Part shown: piece by piece, positions 23,589 through 36,763 of the stretch
How positions within the stretch are numbered: the first letter of the stretch is position 1
Layout: the number at the start of each line of letters is the position of its first letter
DNA from: an uncultured Actinomycetes bacterium
Lineage (GTDB): Bacteria > Actinomycetota > Acidimicrobiia > Acidimicrobiales > Microtrichaceae
Direction: 5' to 3'
DNA length: 36,763 nt
Assembly: GCA_903868545.1 (NCBI GenBank)
Contig: CAIPVR010000115.1
Location: forward strand, 1-36,763
Notes under the pieces: model-generated
The model's database searches: none
What the model was told of the DNA's origin: nothing
The model's input: only the letters and a program-made list of their open reading frames with translations
Made by a program: the position numbers and the translations under genes

Positions 23589-25049
23589 TCAGCTGACGGT
23601 GATCGCGGTGACCATGCCGATCATCGCGTCGGCGGACTCGACGTGGTTGAGGATGTGGCAGTGCCACACCCAGACGCCGGGCTTGTTGGCCTGGAACAGC
23701 ACCGTGTAGCGCTCGCCCGGGGCGATCGTGACCGTGTCGGCCCAGTACGGCTCGTCCAGCGGGATCCCGTCACGGGCGATCACCAGCTGCGGGAACTGGT
23801 GCAGGTGCATCGGGTGGGCCATCAGACCCTCCGAGTAGTAGTTGAAGATCGCCCAATCGCCGACCTTCATCGAGTACGGCTCGGTGGCCGGGAAGCCCTT
23901 GCCGTTCAGCGACAGGCCGATCACCCCGGCGTCGTTGAGCACCATGTTCTTCTCCAATGCCGGCTTCACGTCGGCCGGCACGGTCAGGCCACCGATGGTG
24001 CGGCCCTTCGGGATCATCCAGTCCTGCCGGCCGCCACCGCCCGCGGGCGAGAAGATCATCGAACCCCACAGGCCGTTGGGGATGCCCTCCTGGGCGATGA
24101 TGTGCGGGTGGTACATCGCCACGGCGGGTTCGGTGACCGTGTACTCGTAGGTGTAGGTCTGGCCCGGCTTGATCGGCGGCTGCGTGAGCGGAGACACACC
24201 GTCCTGGTCGTTCGGGAGCACCATCCCGTGCATGTGCAGGTCGGTGTAGACGGGCAGCTTGTTGGTGAGGTTGATGCGGATCCTGTCGCCCACCTCGCCG
24301 CGGATGGTCGGGCCGGGCACGGTGCCGTTGTAGGTCCACGCCTTCACCGTCTCGCCCGGCGTGATCTCCCAGTCGGTGATCTCGGCGGTGATGTCGAACT
24401 GCTTGGTGCCGTTGGGCAGGACCGTGGGCGCCAGGTCCTGGCCACCGAGACCCTTCGTGTTCAGCTTGCCGGAGGTCACCTGGTCCACGAACGGCTGGAA
24501 CGACTTGATCATCTTCTGCGAGTTCTGCTCCGACTCGCTCGGCGTGGCCCCGGCATGACTGCCGGAGTCGGCCTTGGCCGTGGTGGAGGAGGCCTCGCCG
24601 CCGGCCGCCGCGGCCGACCCGCCGCCGGCGGCGGCACCCACGGTGAGGTCGGCCTCCATGCCGGCCGCCTGATGACCGGCGATCGAGCAGAAGACCTTGT
24701 ACGTGCCGGGCTTCAGGTCGGCGAGCGAGAGTTCCTCGGAACCGCCCGGCTGGATGTCCTTGGTGCCGCCGTCGCCCTCGATCCGGAGGTTGTGCACCTG
24801 GGTGCCGGCGTTGCTGACGTTCAGGGAGGAGCCCGCCGGCACGTTCAGGTTGCCGTTGATCTGGAACTCCGACAGGGAGATCTCGCTCGGACCGCCGCCC
24901 GATCCACCGCCACCGCCGTCGTCCTTGACGACGAACCCGATGGCGAAGATCACCAGGGCGACGGCGACGCCGCCGCCGATGATGGTGAGCAACGTGGAGT
25001 AGGGGTTCTCGCCCTTGCCTCGCTCGGGGGCCTCCGGGGCCTCGCTCAT
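23589..25049 (-). CDS. Membrane-anchored fusion: N-terminal cupredoxin plus two-domain multicopper oxidase
   Basis: N-terminal TM (LLTIIGGGVAVALVIFAIGFVV); cupredoxin VHNLRIEG...FCSIAGHQAAGM; MCO motifs DLHMHGM, MYHPHI, HPMHLHQF, WHCHILNHVES. SD AAAGGGGAGAAC before ATG. Confidence 0.9.
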   Translation of the reverse strand: MSEAPEAPERGKGENPYSTLLTIIGGGVAVALVIFAIGFVVKDDGGGGGSGGGPSEISLSEFQINGNLNVPAGSSLNVSNAGTQVHNLRIEGDGGTKDIQPGGSEELSLADLKPGTYKVFCSIAGHQAAGMEADLTVGAAAGGGSAAAAGGEASSTTAKADSGSHAGATPSESEQNSQKMIKSFQPFVDQVTSGKLNTKGLGGQDLAPTVLPNGTKQFDITAEITDWEITPGETVKAWTYNGTVPGPTIRGEVGDRIRINLTNKLPVYTDLHMHGMVLPNDQDGVSPLTQPPIKPGQTYTYEYTVTEPAVAMYHPHIIAQEGIPNGLWGSMIFSPAGGGGRQDWMIPKGRTIGGLTVPADVKPALEKNMVLNDAGVIGLSLNGKGFPATEPYSMKVGDWAIFNYYSEGLMAHPMHLHQFPQLVIARDGIPLDEPYWADTVTIAPGERYTVLFQANKPGVWVWHCHILNHVESADAMIGMVTAITVS

Positions 25050-25090
25050 GTTCTCCCCTTTCTGATGGCCGTTCAGGCGGAGAGTCTGCA

Positions 25091-25151
25091 CGGTGAACGG
25101 TTGCTGTGTCGACTATCTGCACTGTCGATTTCGTCACAGCAACCATCACCG
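25091..25151. promoter_or_regulatory. Large imperfect inverted repeat in the divergent MCO/PhyH intergenic region
   Basis: CGGTGA-ac-GGTTGCTGTG-26 nt-CACAGCAACC-a-TCACCG with nested TCGAC...GTCGA. Confidence 0.65.
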
Positions 25152-29265: not shown

Positions 29266-30723
29266 ATGGTGGGTCGGGGTGGCCGACTCGTGGCGATCCG
29301 CACGACGCTCGCCGTGGCCGGCGCGGCCCTGCTGCTGGCGTCACTCGCCGGCCCGAGCGCCGCCGCCGGCTTCAACGCCGGCGACGCGCAGGCCAGCGCC
29401 GACACGTTCGCCCTGAACATCAAGGCGGCCAACGCCACCATCGGTTTCACCTACGGGCGCTCGATCGCCCAGTACCGCGACCGGACCGGCTCCGCCGAGG
29501 GCCGCGCCCTGGACCTGGGGGCGCTGCCCACCCTGTTCGGCGGCGAACAGTGCGACGGCTCACCCCCACTGCTCAACCCCGCCACCCTCCCGCCGCTCAC
29601 CCGGGCCGACTCGGCCGTGGCCGGCTCCGAGGCCTCCCGCCGGACGCAGGTGTTCCAGCCCGGGATCGACGGGGGCCCGGCCGGTGACCCGGCCGGGTTC
29701 CAGGACGCCACCGCCACCGGGTTGCCCTCCTCCCGGGCGATCACCGAGTCGGTGCCCACCGACATCTTCCTGCTGGCGCTCGACGGTGGGCGCACCGAGG
29801 TGACCACCCGACTCGAGAACCAGGTGCGCGAGGCGCGCGCCGTGGTCACCGCCGACCAGTTGCGCATCCTCGGCGGGCTGTTCACCATCAACCGTCCGCG
29901 GTGGGAGGCGGTGGCACGCAGCGGCGCGACGACCGCCACCACCGGTTCGTTCACCTTCGACTCGGCCACGCTGTTCGGCATCCCCCGCACCAACGCCGAG
30001 GTGCTGGCCGACCTCGCAGGTTTCAAGGACGGCATCGAGCAGCTGCTCGCACCGCTCGGCGTCCGGTTCGAGATGCCACAGGTGCAGGCGCGCGACGGCG
30101 GCGTGCGGGTCACCCCGATGGCGTTCCGGGTGGAGAACCCGCCGTTCGGCACGCAGGTGCTGATCCCGTTCCTGGGCCGGATCGACCCACTGGTGCAGGC
30201 GCTGCGGCAGGCCGCAGTGCGCGACGACTGCAAGAACCAGACGGCGCTGACCGTGCTCGACGTGCTGCTCGGCGTCCTCGGCGGGTCGGGTTCGATCGAG
30301 ATCCTGGCCGGCGGCGCCGACGCCGCGACCAACGATGTGGACTACACGGTGGCCCCCGTGCCCGAGGTGGCGGTCGCGGCCCCGGCACCGGCGGCCGAGG
30401 TGGCCGAGGGGTCGGTGGGGGTGGATCCGCTCCCCCCGACGGAGCTCCCGCTCGGTGACCTGCCGGCGCTCGAGCCGCTCGACACACCGCTCGCCCCGCT
30501 CGACGGGTTGGGGACCGCCCCGGCGGCGCTCACCAGTGGGCGGCGGGCCACGCGTGCGCCGGCCGCGGGGGTGGCGACGCTGCCCGCGTCGGGCACCACG
30601 TTCGAGGACGGCGCCGCGGGGCGGGCGGGGGTGGCCGTGGGTGCCGCCGCGCTCGCGGGCGCGCTGGCGATGTCGGCGGGCGACCGTCTGCTCGGTCGCC
30701 GCCGGAGGAGGTCGATCCCCTGA
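29266..30723 (+). CDS. Secreted/cell-surface protein with signal peptide and C-terminal LPASG-TM-RRRRR region, unknown function
   Basis: N-terminal signal (LAVAGAALLLASLAGPSAAAG), C-terminus LPASGTTFEDG...VAVGAAALAGALAMSAGDRLLGRRRRRSIP; TGATG overlap with next gene. Confidence 0.7.
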   Translation: MVGRGGRLVAIRTTLAVAGAALLLASLAGPSAAAGFNAGDAQASADTFALNIKAANATIGFTYGRSIAQYRDRTGSAEGRALDLGALPTLFGGEQCDGSPPLLNPATLPPLTRADSAVAGSEASRRTQVFQPGIDGGPAGDPAGFQDATATGLPSSRAITESVPTDIFLLALDGGRTEVTTRLENQVREARAVVTADQLRILGGLFTINRPRWEAVARSGATTATTGSFTFDSATLFGIPRTNAEVLADLAGFKDGIEQLLAPLGVRFEMPQVQARDGGVRVTPMAFRVENPPFGTQVLIPFLGRIDPLVQALRQAAVRDDCKNQTALTVLDVLLGVLGGSGSIEILAGGADAATNDVDYTVAPVPEVAVAAPAPAAEVAEGSVGVDPLPPTELPLGDLPALEPLDTPLAPLDGLGTAPAALTSGRRATRAPAAGVATLPASGTTFEDGAAGRAGVAVGAAALAGALAMSAGDRLLGRRRRRSIP

Positions 30724-32426
30724 TGCTGCCCAAGGACCGACTGTTCCGCGGCTACGGCCCGCTGATCGGGTTCGCCGCGATCTTCCTGGCGGTGGCCGTG
30801 CTCGTGCCGAGCCAGCAACGCGAGGTCCGCACCGTCGAGGGGGCGGGGGCCGCCTCCCGGCGCGCGGCGACGGCCGGGCCGGAGGCCGAGGTGGCCGGGG
30901 CGGAGGAGGAGGCGGTGGCCACCGACCCGGTCGCCGGCGACCCAGCCGCCGCGGGCATCGACCCCGCCGCCGGTGGGGCGGGAGGCTCCACCGGACCCGG
31001 TGGAGCCGGCGCCGCCGCGGGCGGCGGCGGGGGCGGGGGAACGAAGGGTCCGCCCGCACTGGCCGGCTGCGGCCCCGCGCAGGTGCCCGGCGATCCGTAC
31101 GCCCCGCCGTGCATCACCTTCAGCGGCAACAACGGCGGCGCCACGGGCCGGGGGGTCACCGGCGACACGATCACCGTGGCCGTTCGCATCCAGGGCTTCT
31201 CGAACGGCATCCTCGACGCCGTCTCGAAGGTGGCCGGCGCCACGATCCCGGACGAGAACGCCGACGTGATCGTCCGCACGGTGAACGGCCTCACCGAGTA
31301 CTTCAACAAGCGGTTCCAGTTCTACGGACGCAAGCTGAAGCTCGTCGTCTACAACGGCAAGGGCGACGTGCTGAAGGAGACGACCGGCGGCGGCCAGGAG
31401 GGCGCGCAGGCCGACGCGCTCAAGGTGGCCCAGGAGATCCAGGCGTTCGCGGACGTCTCGGCGGTCACCCCGGTGTACGCGGACGCGCTGGCCTCCAAGC
31501 AGGTGGTCAACGTGGGCGCCCCGTTCGTGAGCAGGGAGTGGCTCTCCCAGCGCCGGCCGTTCTCGTGGAGCCCGTTCCCCGACTGCTCGACGGTGGTGGA
31601 GAGCGTGGCCAGCTACTACGCGACGAAGCTCTACGGCTCACCGGCCGCGCTTGCCGGCGGCGACCTGCGGGGCCGGCCCCGCCAGGCCGCGATCATCGCC
31701 CCGGAGAACTCCTGGTACCAGGAGTGCGTGAACGCCGGCATCGGGATCCTGCAGAAGGCGGGCCGGGCCGGTGAGCTGGCGCTCACCACCAAGTACCAGC
31801 TCGACATCCCGCGCATGAGCTCCCAGGCCGACACGACGCTGCGCCAGCTCAAGGACCGCGGCATCACCACGGTGGTCTGCGGCTGCGACCCGCTGTTCCT
31901 CACGTTCCTGACCGCCAAGGCCAAGGAGCAGGGCTACTTCCCCGAGTGGGTGATCACCGGTGTGGCGTTCGTGGACAACGACCTGATCGGCCAGATCCTC
32001 CAGCGCGACGCCTGGTCCCGTGCGTTCGGCGTGTCCTTCGCCGGGCCCACCCAGCCCGCGGGCACCGGCCTCGGCTACCGCGCCTACAAGTCGGTGCGGA
32101 CCGACGAGCCGTCGATCGGCGTGGAACTGCTGTACAACCAGCTCGACCTGCTCGCGATCGGCATCCAGATGGCGGGCCCCGCGCTCACCCCGCAGTCGTT
32201 CGAGAAGGGGATGTTCGACTACCCGAGGCGCACCGGCCCGTCGGGCACCTGGGGCTTCGGGCCCGGCGACTACGCCACGGCCGAGGACGCACGGGAGGTG
32301 TTCTGGAACCCCGCGGCGGGCTCCGCACTGAACCGCCAGCCCGGCGCCTACCAGGACCCGAACGCCGGGGCCCGCTTCCCCATCGGCCGCTGGCCGGCCG
32401 CACCGCCGCGCTCGGCGGCCGGTTGA
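30723..32426 (+). CDS. Branched-chain amino acid-type ABC transporter substrate-binding protein with N-terminal TM anchor
   Basis: N-terminal YGPLIGFAAIFLAVAVLVP, Ala/Gly-rich linker, then ITVAVRIQGFSNGIL...type-1 periplasmic-binding fold segments (ALKVAQEIQAFADVSAVTPVYADALASKQVVNVGAPFVS). Confidence 0.8.
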   Translation: MLPKDRLFRGYGPLIGFAAIFLAVAVLVPSQQREVRTVEGAGAASRRAATAGPEAEVAGAEEEAVATDPVAGDPAAAGIDPAAGGAGGSTGPGGAGAAAGGGGGGGTKGPPALAGCGPAQVPGDPYAPPCITFSGNNGGATGRGVTGDTITVAVRIQGFSNGILDAVSKVAGATIPDENADVIVRTVNGLTEYFNKRFQFYGRKLKLVVYNGKGDVLKETTGGGQEGAQADALKVAQEIQAFADVSAVTPVYADALASKQVVNVGAPFVSREWLSQRRPFSWSPFPDCSTVVESVASYYATKLYGSPAALAGGDLRGRPRQAAIIAPENSWYQECVNAGIGILQKAGRAGELALTTKYQLDIPRMSSQADTTLRQLKDRGITTVVCGCDPLFLTFLTAKAKEQGYFPEWVITGVAFVDNDLIGQILQRDAWSRAFGVSFAGPTQPAGTGLGYRAYKSVRTDEPSIGVELLYNQLDLLAIGIQMAGPALTPQSFEKGMFDYPRRTGPSGTWGFGPGDYATAEDAREVFWNPAAGSALNRQPGAYQDPNAGARFPIGRWPAAPPRSAAG

Positions 32427-32427
32427 C

Positions 32428-35400
32428 GTGGAGCGCATCACCGCCAGCCCTGCGGGCCGCTGGGGCCTCGCCACCGTGGCGCTGCTGGCGGCGTGGGCGG
32501 TGGCCGCAGCGGTGCTGCCGAACGGCGCACCACCGGGCGAGGTGCTCGCCGGCGCGATCCTGGGCTCGGCCACGGGGCTCACCGCGGTGGGGCTCATCCT
32601 GATCTGGCGGGCCAGCCGCGTGATCAACTTCGCCAACGGGGCCATGGCCGGGCTCGCCGGGTTGGTGGCCGTGCACCTGTTCCTGAGCTGGGGATGGCCG
32701 TACCCGGTCACCTTGGTGGTGGCACCGCTGCTCGGCCTCGGCGTGGGCGCGCTCGTGGAGTTCACCGTGGTCCGCCGCTTCGCCGACGCACCGCGCCTGG
32801 TGCTCACCGTCGCCACCATCGGCGTGGCCCAGGTCCTCGGCGGTGTCGAGCTGCTGATCCCCGAACGGGTCTTCGGGGCGCGGGGCCTGGTGCTCGGCGC
32901 GTACGACACCCCGCTGAGCTCCCTGAGCTTCGAGGTGGGACCGGCCCTCATCACCGGCAACCACCTGTTGTGCGTGGCGGTGGTCCCGGTGGTGGTGGCG
33001 GTGCTGGGGTGGTTCCTCCGCCGGTCGCTCGCCGGCACCGCGGTGCGGGCCGCGGCGGAGAACACCGAACGGGCGCGGTTGCTCGGCATCCCGGTTCGTC
33101 GCCTCACCACGACGGTGTGGGCGATCGCCGGGGCGCTCGCGGCCCTCACCTTCGTGCTCCAGGCACCCTTCCTCGGTGCGTCCCCCTCGGCGGCGGCCGG
33201 CCCGGCCGTGCTGCTGCCGGCGCTCGCCGCGGCGATCGTGGCCCGCATGGAGAAGCTCACCGTGGCGTTCGCGGCAGCGGTGGTGCTCGGCGTGGTGCAG
33301 GAACTCGTCCGCTGGAACGCCGACACCCCGGCGCTGGTCGACGTGGTGGTCCTCGTGGTGATCCTGGTGGCGCTCCTCACCGACCGCGCCGCGAAGTCCC
33401 GTGCCCACGACGCCGACGGCGGCTGGCGCGACGCGGACCTGGTGCGGGCCCTGGACCCGGCGGTCGCAGCGCTGCGCAGCGTCCGGGCGGCCCGCGCGGC
33501 GGGCCTCGTCGTCCTGGTGGCCGCCGCCGTGCTCGTGCCGCTGTGGCTCGCACCCGGCGACGCGTTCTCCGTGTCGGTCGTGGCGGTCTGGGCCATGGTC
33601 GCGGTGAGCCTCGTGGTGCTCACCGGGTGGGCGGGCCAGATCAGCCTCGGACAGTTCGCCATCGTGGGCGTGGGAGCGATCGTCGCCGGCAACCTGCTCA
33701 CCCGCTGGAACGTCGACCTCTTCGTCACGCTGTTCGTGGCGACCGCGGCGGGCGCGCTCGTGGCGGTGCTGCTGGGCGTGCCGGCCCTGCGCATCCGGGG
33801 ACCGTTCCTCGCGGTGGTCACCCTCGCGTTCGCCGTGGTGCTCGACGGCTACGTGCTCAACCCCAACGTGTTCCCCGAGTTGATCCCCGAGTCCCTCACG
33901 AGACCGCTGCTGTGGGGACGGGTGGACCTCGCCGACGAGCGGGCGATGCTGTGGTGCTGCCTGGCCGCGCTCGCACTCGTGATCGCGCTGGCGCGCGGCG
34001 TGCGGCGGTCGCGGTCGGGCCGGCTCCTGATCGCGGCACGCGACAACCGCAAGGCCGCGGAGGCCGCTGCCGTGCCCACCCGCTGGGCCACCCTCTCCGG
34101 GTTCGTCTTCTCGGGCGCGATCGCCGGCCTCGCGGGCGGACTCCACGTGCTCCTGCTGCAGGGGGTCCGGGCCGGCTCGTACCAGCCGGTGATGTCGGTG
34201 GAGGTGTTCTCCGGTGCCACGATCGGCGGCCTCGGCTCACTCGGTGGCGCATCGGTCGGTGCCGCGCTGCTGCGCGGCGGCCAGGACCTCGACGCCACCA
34301 TCCGGCTCGTCGGTGCCGGAGTGGGCGTGCTGGTGGTCCTCTGGGTGCTGCCGGCGGGCCTCGCCGGTCTCGCGGCCCGCGCCCGCGACGCCGTGGCCCG
34401 CCGTCTCGCCACCCGAGCCGGACCCGCCACCGCGGCTCCCGGCGACGACACACCGGCCATCCCCTCCCCGGAGGTGGGCCCCGTGCCCACGGGACCGCCG
34501 GCGTTCGTCGGTGAGGTGCCGGCAGGCGACTGGCGGCCCCCGGTCCCGGCACTGGCGGCTCGGGGCGTGGACGTGAGCTACGGGCAACTCCAGGTGCTCT
34601 TCGGGGTGGACCTCGAGGTGGGCGACGGCGAGGTGGTGGCGCTGCTGGGCACCAACGGCGCCGGCAAGTCCACGCTCCTGCGGGCGGTGGCGGGCCTGTC
34701 GCCGTGCCGCGGCGAGGTGTCGCTGCGGGGCGAGCGCATCGACGACCTGTCGCCGGAGCGGATCGTGCGCTCCGGTGTGGCCCTCATGCCGGGCGGCCGC
34801 GCACTGTTCCCCACCCTCACGGTGGCCGACCACCTGCGGCTCGCCACGTGGACGTTCCGCACCGATACCTCCCGGATCCGCGACGACCTCGAGGACGTGG
34901 ACCGGCTGTTCCCGGTACTACGCGAGCGCCGGAACCAGCTGGCCGGCGACCTGTCGGGCGGGGAGCAGCAGCAGCTGGCGCTCGCGTGCACGCTCCTGTT
35001 GCGACCCTCCGTACTGCTGATCGACGAGCTGTCGCTGGGGCTCTCGCCCCTGGTGGTGGCCGCGCTGTGCGACGTGGTCCGCCGGCTGAACGAGACCGGC
35101 ATGACGATCGTGGTGGTGGAGCAGTCGGTCAACGTGGCCCTCACCCTGGCCGGGCGCGCGGTGTTCATGGAGAAGGGGCAGGTGCGGTTCGAGGGGCCGA
35201 CGCAGGACCTGCTCGAACGGCCGGACCTGCTGCGGTCGGTGTTCCTCGCCGGTGACACCGCCGGGAACGGCGACCACACCGCCGGGAACGGCGACGGCCG
35301 CGCCGACACCGCGGACCCGGACCGGCCGGTGGTCCCCATCGACCTGCGCGAGCTCCCGCCCTCGGCACCGGCGGGCGGCGACGGCCCGGTGCTCGTGGTC

Positions 35401-36186
35401 GAGGACCTCACGAAGCGTTTCGGGGGTGTGGAGGCGCTGAGCCACGTGGACCTCCGGGTGGAGCCCGGCGAGATCGTCGGCCTGATCGGGCAGAACGGGG
35501 CGGGCAAGACGACGCTGCTGGACTGCATCTCCGGGTTCCACCGCTCCGACCACGGCCGGATCCTGCTGCGCGGCACCGACGTGACGGAGTGGGCGCCGTT
35601 CGAACGGGCCCGTGGCCGGCTGGGCCGGACCTTCCAGGAGGCCCGCCTGTTCCCGTCGCTCACCGTGCTGGAGACCCTGGCCGTGGCCTGCGAGCGCACC
35701 GTGGAGAACCGGTCGCTGGTCGCGGACGCCACGCGCCAACCCGCCTCGTACCTCGCCGAGGCCGTGACGCTGCGCCGGGCGGCCGAACTGGTGCGGTTGC
35801 TGGGGCTCGGCCGCTACGAGCACACGCCCACCTCCGCCCTCTCCACCGGCACCCGCCGCATCGTGGAGCTGGGCTGCCTGCTCGCGGAGGACCCGGTGGT
35901 CATGCTGCTCGACGAGCCGTCGGCCGGCGTGGCGCAGAAGGAGACCGAGGCGCTCGGGCCGCTCCTGCGGCGCATACGGGACCACACCGGTGCCGCGCTC
36001 GTGGTCATCGAGCACGACATGCCGCTCCTGGCCGGGCTCTGCGGCCGGCTGGTGGCGATGGAGCTCGGCCAGGTGCTGGTGGAGGGTCCGCCGGCGGACG
36101 TGCTCGCCCACCCCGCCGTGGTGGCCGCCTACCTGGGGACCGACGCGGCGGCGATCCACCGCTCGGGCACGGCGTTCAGCACCTGA
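32428..36186 (+). CDS. Single-polypeptide Liv/HAAT-type ABC importer: LivH-like and LivM-like permeases plus LivF-like and LivG-like ATPases
   Basis: One uninterrupted 1252-aa ORF: LivH-like (RASRVINFANGAMAGLAG...), LivM-like (VVLTGWAGQISLGQFAIVGVGA...), NBD1 (GTNGAGKST at about 34648, LSGGEQQQ, VLLIDELSLGLSP), NBD2 (GQNGAGKTT at about 35488, LSTGTRR, VMLLDEPSAGV, IEHDM). Confidence 0.93.
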   Translation: MERITASPAGRWGLATVALLAAWAVAAAVLPNGAPPGEVLAGAILGSATGLTAVGLILIWRASRVINFANGAMAGLAGLVAVHLFLSWGWPYPVTLVVAPLLGLGVGALVEFTVVRRFADAPRLVLTVATIGVAQVLGGVELLIPERVFGARGLVLGAYDTPLSSLSFEVGPALITGNHLLCVAVVPVVVAVLGWFLRRSLAGTAVRAAAENTERARLLGIPVRRLTTTVWAIAGALAALTFVLQAPFLGASPSAAAGPAVLLPALAAAIVARMEKLTVAFAAAVVLGVVQELVRWNADTPALVDVVVLVVILVALLTDRAAKSRAHDADGGWRDADLVRALDPAVAALRSVRAARAAGLVVLVAAAVLVPLWLAPGDAFSVSVVAVWAMVAVSLVVLTGWAGQISLGQFAIVGVGAIVAGNLLTRWNVDLFVTLFVATAAGALVAVLLGVPALRIRGPFLAVVTLAFAVVLDGYVLNPNVFPELIPESLTRPLLWGRVDLADERAMLWCCLAALALVIALARGVRRSRSGRLLIAARDNRKAAEAAAVPTRWATLSGFVFSGAIAGLAGGLHVLLLQGVRAGSYQPVMSVEVFSGATIGGLGSLGGASVGAALLRGGQDLDATIRLVGAGVGVLVVLWVLPAGLAGLAARARDAVARRLATRAGPATAAPGDDTPAIPSPEVGPVPTGPPAFVGEVPAGDWRPPVPALAARGVDVSYGQLQVLFGVDLEVGDGEVVALLGTNGAGKSTLLRAVAGLSPCRGEVSLRGERIDDLSPERIVRSGVALMPGGRALFPTLTVADHLRLATWTFRTDTSRIRDDLEDVDRLFPVLRERRNQLAGDLSGGEQQQLALACTLLLRPSVLLIDELSLGLSPLVVAALCDVVRRLNETGMTIVVVEQSVNVALTLAGRAVFMEKGQVRFEGPTQDLLERPDLLRSVFLAGDTAGNGDHTAGNGDGRADTADPDRPVVPIDLRELPPSAPAGGDGPVLVVEDLTKRFGGVEALSHVDLRVEPGEIVGLIGQNGAGKTTLLDCISGFHRSDHGRILLRGTDVTEWAPFERARGRLGRTFQEARLFPSLTVLETLAVACERTVENRSLVADATRQPASYLAEAVTLRRAAELVRLLGLGRYEHTPTSALSTGTRRIVELGCLLAEDPVVMLLDEPSAGVAQKETEALGPLLRRIRDHTGAALVVIEHDMPLLAGLCGRLVAMELGQVLVEGPPADVLAHPAVVAAYLGTDAAAIHRSGTAFST

Positions 36187-36273: not shown

Positions 36274-36763
36274 TCAGGCGACGTTGCGGCGGCGGGTGGC
36301 GCCACCGAGCAGGGCCATGCCCACCAGGAGGAGGCCGCCGCCGAACACCAGCAGGAGGCTCGAGGAGTTGCCCGTGTAGGCGAGGCTCGCCCCGCCGGAG
36401 CGGGTGACCGTCGCACCCGCCACCTGCAGCGGCACGGTGGTCTCGGCGGCCACGGCCGTCGCCGCTTGGGCGGTCGACGCCTCGGTGGTCGACGGCCGGA
36501 TCGTGGTCGCCGGCGCCACCGTCGGCGACGGCACCGTGGTCGACGTCGTCGGCGCCACCGTGGTCGACGTCGTCGGCGCCACCGTGGTCGAGGTCGTGGA
36601 GGACGTGGTCGAGGTCGTCGAGGTCGTCGTGGTCGAGGTCGTGCTCGGCACCGTGGTCGACGTCGTGGTCGACGTGGTCGAGGTCGTGCTCGGCACCGTG
36701 GTCGACGTCGTGGTCGACGTGGTCGAGGTCGTGCTCGGCACCGTGGTCGACGTCGTGGTCGAC
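36274..36763 (-). CDS. Thr/Ser-rich surface protein with class-E-sortase-like LAYTG anchor (5' end outside window)
   Basis: C-terminus SLAYTGNSSSLLLVFGGGLLLVGMALLGGATRRRNVA preceded by Thr-rich repeats; reading frame open to the window edge. Confidence 0.75.
   Translation of the reverse strand, partial: STTTSTTVPSTTSTTSTTTSTTVPSTTSTTSTTTSTTVPSTTSTTTTSTTSTTSSTTSTTVAPTTSTTVAPTTSTTVPSPTVAPATTIRPSTTEASTAQAATAVAAETTVPLQVAGATVTRSGGASLAYTGNSSSLLLVFGGGLLLVGMALLGGATRRRNVA
36530..36763. repeat. Tandem repeats (45-bp unit and 24-bp unit) encoding Thr/Ser-rich tract
   Basis: GTGCTCGGCACCGTGGTCGACGTCGTGGTCGACGTGGTCGAGGTC repeated at 45-bp period; GTCGACGTCGTCGGCGCCACCGTG repeated at 24-bp period. Confidence 0.9.

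Follow-up and report, generated by a model that had tools for sequence, protein, structure and literature searches.

A close known counterpart of the system described here is the LivJ/K-LivHMGF importer of E. coli, which is built of the same four core domains and served by a type I binding protein. In E. coli the four domains are the products of separate genes arranged H-M-G-F, whereas our locus carries them in one ORF in the order H-M-F-G, so that the order of the two NBDs differs, and its substrate-binding protein (SBP) is anchored by a transmembrane (TM) segment. Two NBDs per chain, as in the protein studied here, are also found in OppD/DppD of M. tuberculosis and RbsA/NupO of B. subtilis. 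However, the transmembrane domains (TMDs) of those systems reside on separate polypeptides, while the present chain includes them too. Fused NBDs are comparatively uncommon among prokaryotes, and in RbsA/NupO they are accompanied by degenerate ATP sites (PMC11466899). In the open-access literature searched we found no paper describing the four-domain architecture.

The window, i.e. the whole stretch of DNA that was analysed, comprises 36,763 nt from the genome of an uncultured Actinomycetes bacterium of the family Microtrichaceae. The importer gene, its parts and the two genes preceding it are as follows:

29266-30723, + strand: conserved secreted/membrane protein with no Pfam family, homologues of which lie beside the SBP gene in related loci
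30723-32426, + strand: SBP of 567 aa with an N-terminal TM anchor, a Gly/Ala-rich tether and a predicted type I periplasmic-binding fold
32428-36186, + strand: four-domain fused Liv/HAAT importer, LivH-LivM-LivF-LivG (ORF, Pfam and slice matches)
32545-33375, + strand: LivH-like transmembrane domain, BPD_transp_2 (domain and slice match)
33391-33432, + strand: low-confidence H-M loop (pLDDT < 50, model residues 287-300)
33571-34275, + strand: LivM-like transmembrane domain, BPD_transp_2 (Pfam and slice match)
34426-34536, + strand: M-F linker, variable and of low confidence (pLDDT < 50, model residues 632-668)
34558-35211, + strand: LivF-like NBD, best curated models UrtE/LivF (curated models, slice match, motifs)
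35236-35334, + strand: F-G linker, variable and of low confidence (pLDDT < 50, model residues 902-934)
35389-36141, + strand: LivG-like NBD, UrtD/LivG models (curated models, slice match, motifs)

The importer ORF starts with GTG and encodes 1252 aa without a single internal stop, reading LivH-LivM-LivF-LivG as the first-pass annotation had proposed. Two stretches of BPD_transp_2 (E 1.2e-52) and two of ABC_tran (E 3.7e-56), the domain content on which that proposal depended, were found in a Pfam search, and BCA_ABC_TP_C was placed at the C-terminal end, as a tail on the LivG domain. When slices of the protein were compared with LivF, LivG, LivM and LivH of E. coli MG1655, each was closest to its own counterpart: the H slice to LivH (1.9e-8), M to LivM (4e-11), F to LivF (3e-52) and G to LivG (1e-55). 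The probability that an uninterrupted ORF with four ordered domains arose by chance is negligible. The protein thus combines two BPD_transp_2 TMDs of the LivH and LivM type with NBDs of the LivF and LivG type, both with intact Walker A and B motifs, the latter NBD bearing the BCA_ABC_TP_C tail. Both NBDs score below the NCBIfam cut-offs for the E. coli proteins (NBD1, 260 vs 441 bits for LivF; NBD2, 274 vs 362 bits for LivG); they are homologues of E. coli LivF and LivG but not the E. coli equivalogs. That the fusion fixes stoichiometry and forces a heterodimer, as suggested earlier, can fairly be inferred. However, the separate subunits of E. coli Liv already pair as H/M and F/G heterodimers, and therefore fusion would alter the assembly, not the kind of complex.

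The two Walker A motifs named in the first reading, GTNGAGKST (34648-34674) in NBD1 and GQNGAGKTT (35488-35514) in NBD2, are indeed intact. The remaining motifs differ between the two domains: NBD1 has the signature LSGGEQ, the Walker B sequence IDEL and Gln at the switch position, NBD2 a degenerate signature, LSTGT, the Walker B sequence LDEP and a switch His. Among the fused proteins examined, both Walker A motifs and the Walker B aspartate-glutamate are kept in all except one that is cut off by its contig, and the Q-loop and switch residues are conserved. NBD1 of these proteins consistently shows the canonical LSGGEQ and the switch Gln, and NBD2 LSTG[T/M/S]RR and the switch His. Because NBDs usually pair head-to-tail, the canonical ATP site would consist of the NBD2 Walker motifs and the NBD1 signature, and the other site would be degenerate. 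We considered this asymmetry (LSTGT, Q-switch) as a consequence of the fusion and rejected the idea, since it is family-wide: the LSTG signature in LivG and the Gln switch in LivF are equally present in unfused systems, both HM + FG and HMG + MFS-F (see below).

The domain folds are supported by prediction. AlphaFold2, run on residues 36-1235 (1200 residues) with 36 family sequences, returned the confident monomer that the first-pass annotation had proposed as a check (pTM 0.83, mean pLDDT 84.7), with pLDDT values below 50 confined to three stretches, i.e. the H-M loop and the M-F and F-G linkers. In Foldseek, the NBD pair was matched best by DppD and OppD, the subunits of M. tuberculosis DppABCD/OppABCD in which two NBDs are fused; these matches span about half of the chain, with a TM-score by target of 0.56-0.68. 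For the whole chain, there was no good match to any solved structure among the Foldseek matches listed.

The SBP gene ends at 32426, a single nucleotide before the GTG start of the importer gene, and in nearly all loci of the window's clade with enough flank it lies next to the fused gene. Its product begins with a conserved hydrophobic TM anchor, RLFRGYGPLIGF, which opens with RLFRGYG; no lipobox-like Cys follows this anchor, and a low-complexity tether stands there instead. The window SBP gave no direct sequence match to Pfam or the PDB, and Peripla_BP_6 was matched in 24 of its 47 homologues. The SBP model reached a pTM of 0.79, with pLDDT above 90 over most of the core, and matches LivJ-type binding proteins. 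It resembles leucine-, aromatic-acid- and urea-binding proteins about equally, so that the substrate cannot be read from the fold. Judged by its homologues and predicted fold, the protein encoded with the importer is an SBP of the type I periplasmic-binding fold. Homologues of the gene preceding it (29266-30723) occur in 14 related loci, and this gene apparently belongs to the same operon as the SBP and importer genes. Its product matches no known domain in Pfam and has a signal-like N-terminus, an LPASG-like motif, a C-terminal hydrophobic stretch and an Arg tail. In several family members a gene for an AMP-binding CoA ligase lies upstream; as a speculation, the solute could be a carboxylate that is activated with CoA.

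With its observed domain content and order, intact catalytic motifs, recurrence (see below) and genomic partner, the locus very probably encodes a HAAT (Liv/Urt) ABC importer that depends on an SBP and unites its four core domains in one polypeptide. The membrane-tethered binding protein from the upstream gene would capture a small solute outside the cell and dock onto the transmembrane pair formed by LivH and LivM. LivF and LivG, tethered by flexible linkers, would close head-to-tail on ATP, and this closure may drive transport, presumably inward and at the expense of ATP. A small amino acid, amide or carboxylate as substrate would fit the family. By all the evidence gathered here the mechanism is ordinary, i.e. 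the single-chain importer would work like the textbook system.

How widespread such a fusion might be had been left to a survey of architectures, and within the scope of ours, i.e. the phylum of the window together with a search of plasmids and a scan of genome contigs by pattern, it proved recurrent in the window's class and order rather than unique. The one-ORF HMFG architecture was seen at about 40 other loci with 42-78% identity. A search of the window's own genome and 40 relatives found it in much of its own family (57-78% identity) and in two other families of the order (46-52%), and the H-M-F-G order in single ORFs was confirmed by domain scans with HMMs built from the fused proteins themselves. 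In an even sample of 99 genomes from the order, 18 had a match at E <= 1e-190; by domain scan, 17 of these were HMFG and one (L149) an incomplete MFG reading. Further examples come from elsewhere in the class (L152, L153, L154, L157), and a single one from another class of the phylum (L162, confirmed with Pfam). In the plasmid collection, no place covering 80% of the fused protein was found among the best 5000 records. A different fusion was seen in L166 (genome G234, same phylum), where HMF form one ORF and G lies in an overlapping one.

A continuous frame could also be produced by a sequencing frameshift or an assembly error that joins separate genes. The window's genome is a 335-contig draft, and in the closest split relatives the two genes overlap by only 4 nt (RTGA) in different frames, so that one indel would join them. 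However, the same one-ORF fusion recurs in many members of the window's family and across many of the order's other families, in genomes that were assembled separately, and the linkers of the fused relatives differ in length yet always stay in frame. The occurrence in so many separate assemblies rules out, to a probability that we put close to nil, a fusion of this origin; the single-chain HAAT importer is real, conserved and recurrent, not a one-off. A genuine single ORF might still yield, also or mainly, two products (HM and FG), either by internal initiation or by proteolysis of a linker. The linkers are variable and predicted to be disordered, and the M-F linker of the window contains in frame a Shine-Dalgarno-like arrangement, GGAGG-N8-GTG. 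Nevertheless, this site is absent from all close relatives, and linkers contain sites of this sort no more often than other regions do (0.32 vs 0.30 per 100 codons). The idea that translation restarts at a conserved site within the M-F junction was therefore rejected, and the production of two polypeptides seems quite unlikely.

As to the kind of importer, the Urt-type urea transporters were the other candidate, given that NBD1 passes the UrtE equivalog cut-off (293.6 vs 285.8 bits) while failing that of E. coli LivF. NBD2, on the other hand, fails the UrtD cut-off (277.4 vs 304.1 bits), so that only one of the two Urt equivalogs is recognized, the binding protein does not match UrtA in sequence, and its fold is no nearer to UrtA than to other type I binding proteins. 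We therefore regard a urea importer, as opposed to an amino-acid-type one, as very improbable.

The single-chain importer has close two-gene counterparts. In L034-L037 and L136, HM and FG genes encode the same domains in the same order, without an MFS domain and with a homologous SBP neighbour where flank is present; the proteins of L034-L037 share about 55-57% identity with that of the window in the best segment. They differ from the single ORF of the window in being encoded by overlapping genes, the stop of HM and the start of FG sharing the 4 nt mentioned above and FG lying in another frame. As the overlap is so short, a small indel at the junction would fuse the pair. The fusion junction relative to these two-gene systems is the M-F linker, whose length varies from 47 to 151 aa among the fused relatives. 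A 72-row tree built on the concatenated H, M, F and G domains, on which gains and losses are not separable, requires 7 changes between the fused and split states, at least 5 of them forced by well-supported branches, and a single clade of all fused rows was rejected (p-AU 5e-57; LG+G4 quick tree with some long branches). Recurrent fusion (or fission) of the overlapping HM/FG pair is the best explanation for the four-domain architecture. The window's own genome holds HMFG beside several other arrangements: G, F, H and M as separate genes (L110), HM plus MFS-F (L111), HM with separate G and F (L112 and L114), F plus HMG (L113), and HM for which no NBD genes were picked up (L115). Across the family, four genes, HM + G + F, HM + FG, HMG + MFS-F and HMFG make up a natural series in which the effect of covalently fusing an ABC importer can be studied.

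A Major Facilitator domain (MFS_1; Pfam E 1e-31 to 1e-41) is fused N-terminally to the LivF-like NBD in many relatives. The fused gene is MFS-F where its neighbour is HMG, and MFS-F-G where its neighbour is HM. The following MFS-LivF and MFS-LivF-LivG genes represent such systems:

L111, 4062-6341 (own genome, contig C145)
L041, 2264-5329
L054, 8049-11114
L060, 4546-6747
L067, 4225-6732

These systems (L041, L054, L060 and that of the own genome) have homologous HM and NBDs with the same asymmetry of NBD motifs, and differ by the MFS in front of the LivF-like NBD, which the window protein lacks. Such fusions are common in the actinobacteria sampled. In a scan that includes a few duplicate rows, MFS was present in 33 of 43 FG ORFs and in 45 of 60 F ORFs, some of the F ORFs with no match being long enough to hide a diverged MFS domain, and in none of 43 HMFG ORFs. 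On the tree, its presence requires 5 changes. It is conceivable, though we consider it rather doubtful, that the LivF/LivG motor of this actinobacterial family is an exchangeable module, tied covalently to an MFS carrier in some systems and to the LivHM permease in others, never to both; if true, the full fusion would mark the loss of a hybrid ABC/MFS transport mode. A search of the open-access literature for MFS-ABC fusions found nothing relevant.

A natural single-chain importer allows the role of each of two unequal ATP sites in a Liv-type transporter to be tested by mutation without subunit exchange, and constitutes a convenient single-gene target for structural work.

Two further genes of the window were noted. 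The region 23589-25091 (- strand) encodes a multicopper oxidase with an N-terminal cupredoxin-like domain (Pfam Cu-oxidase_3 and Cu-oxidase_2). Downstream of the importer gene, an open-ended ORF (36274-36762, - strand) encodes Thr/Ser/Val-rich repeats, an LAYTG motif, a hydrophobic stretch and an Arg-rich tail at the end, resembling a sortase-anchored surface protein.
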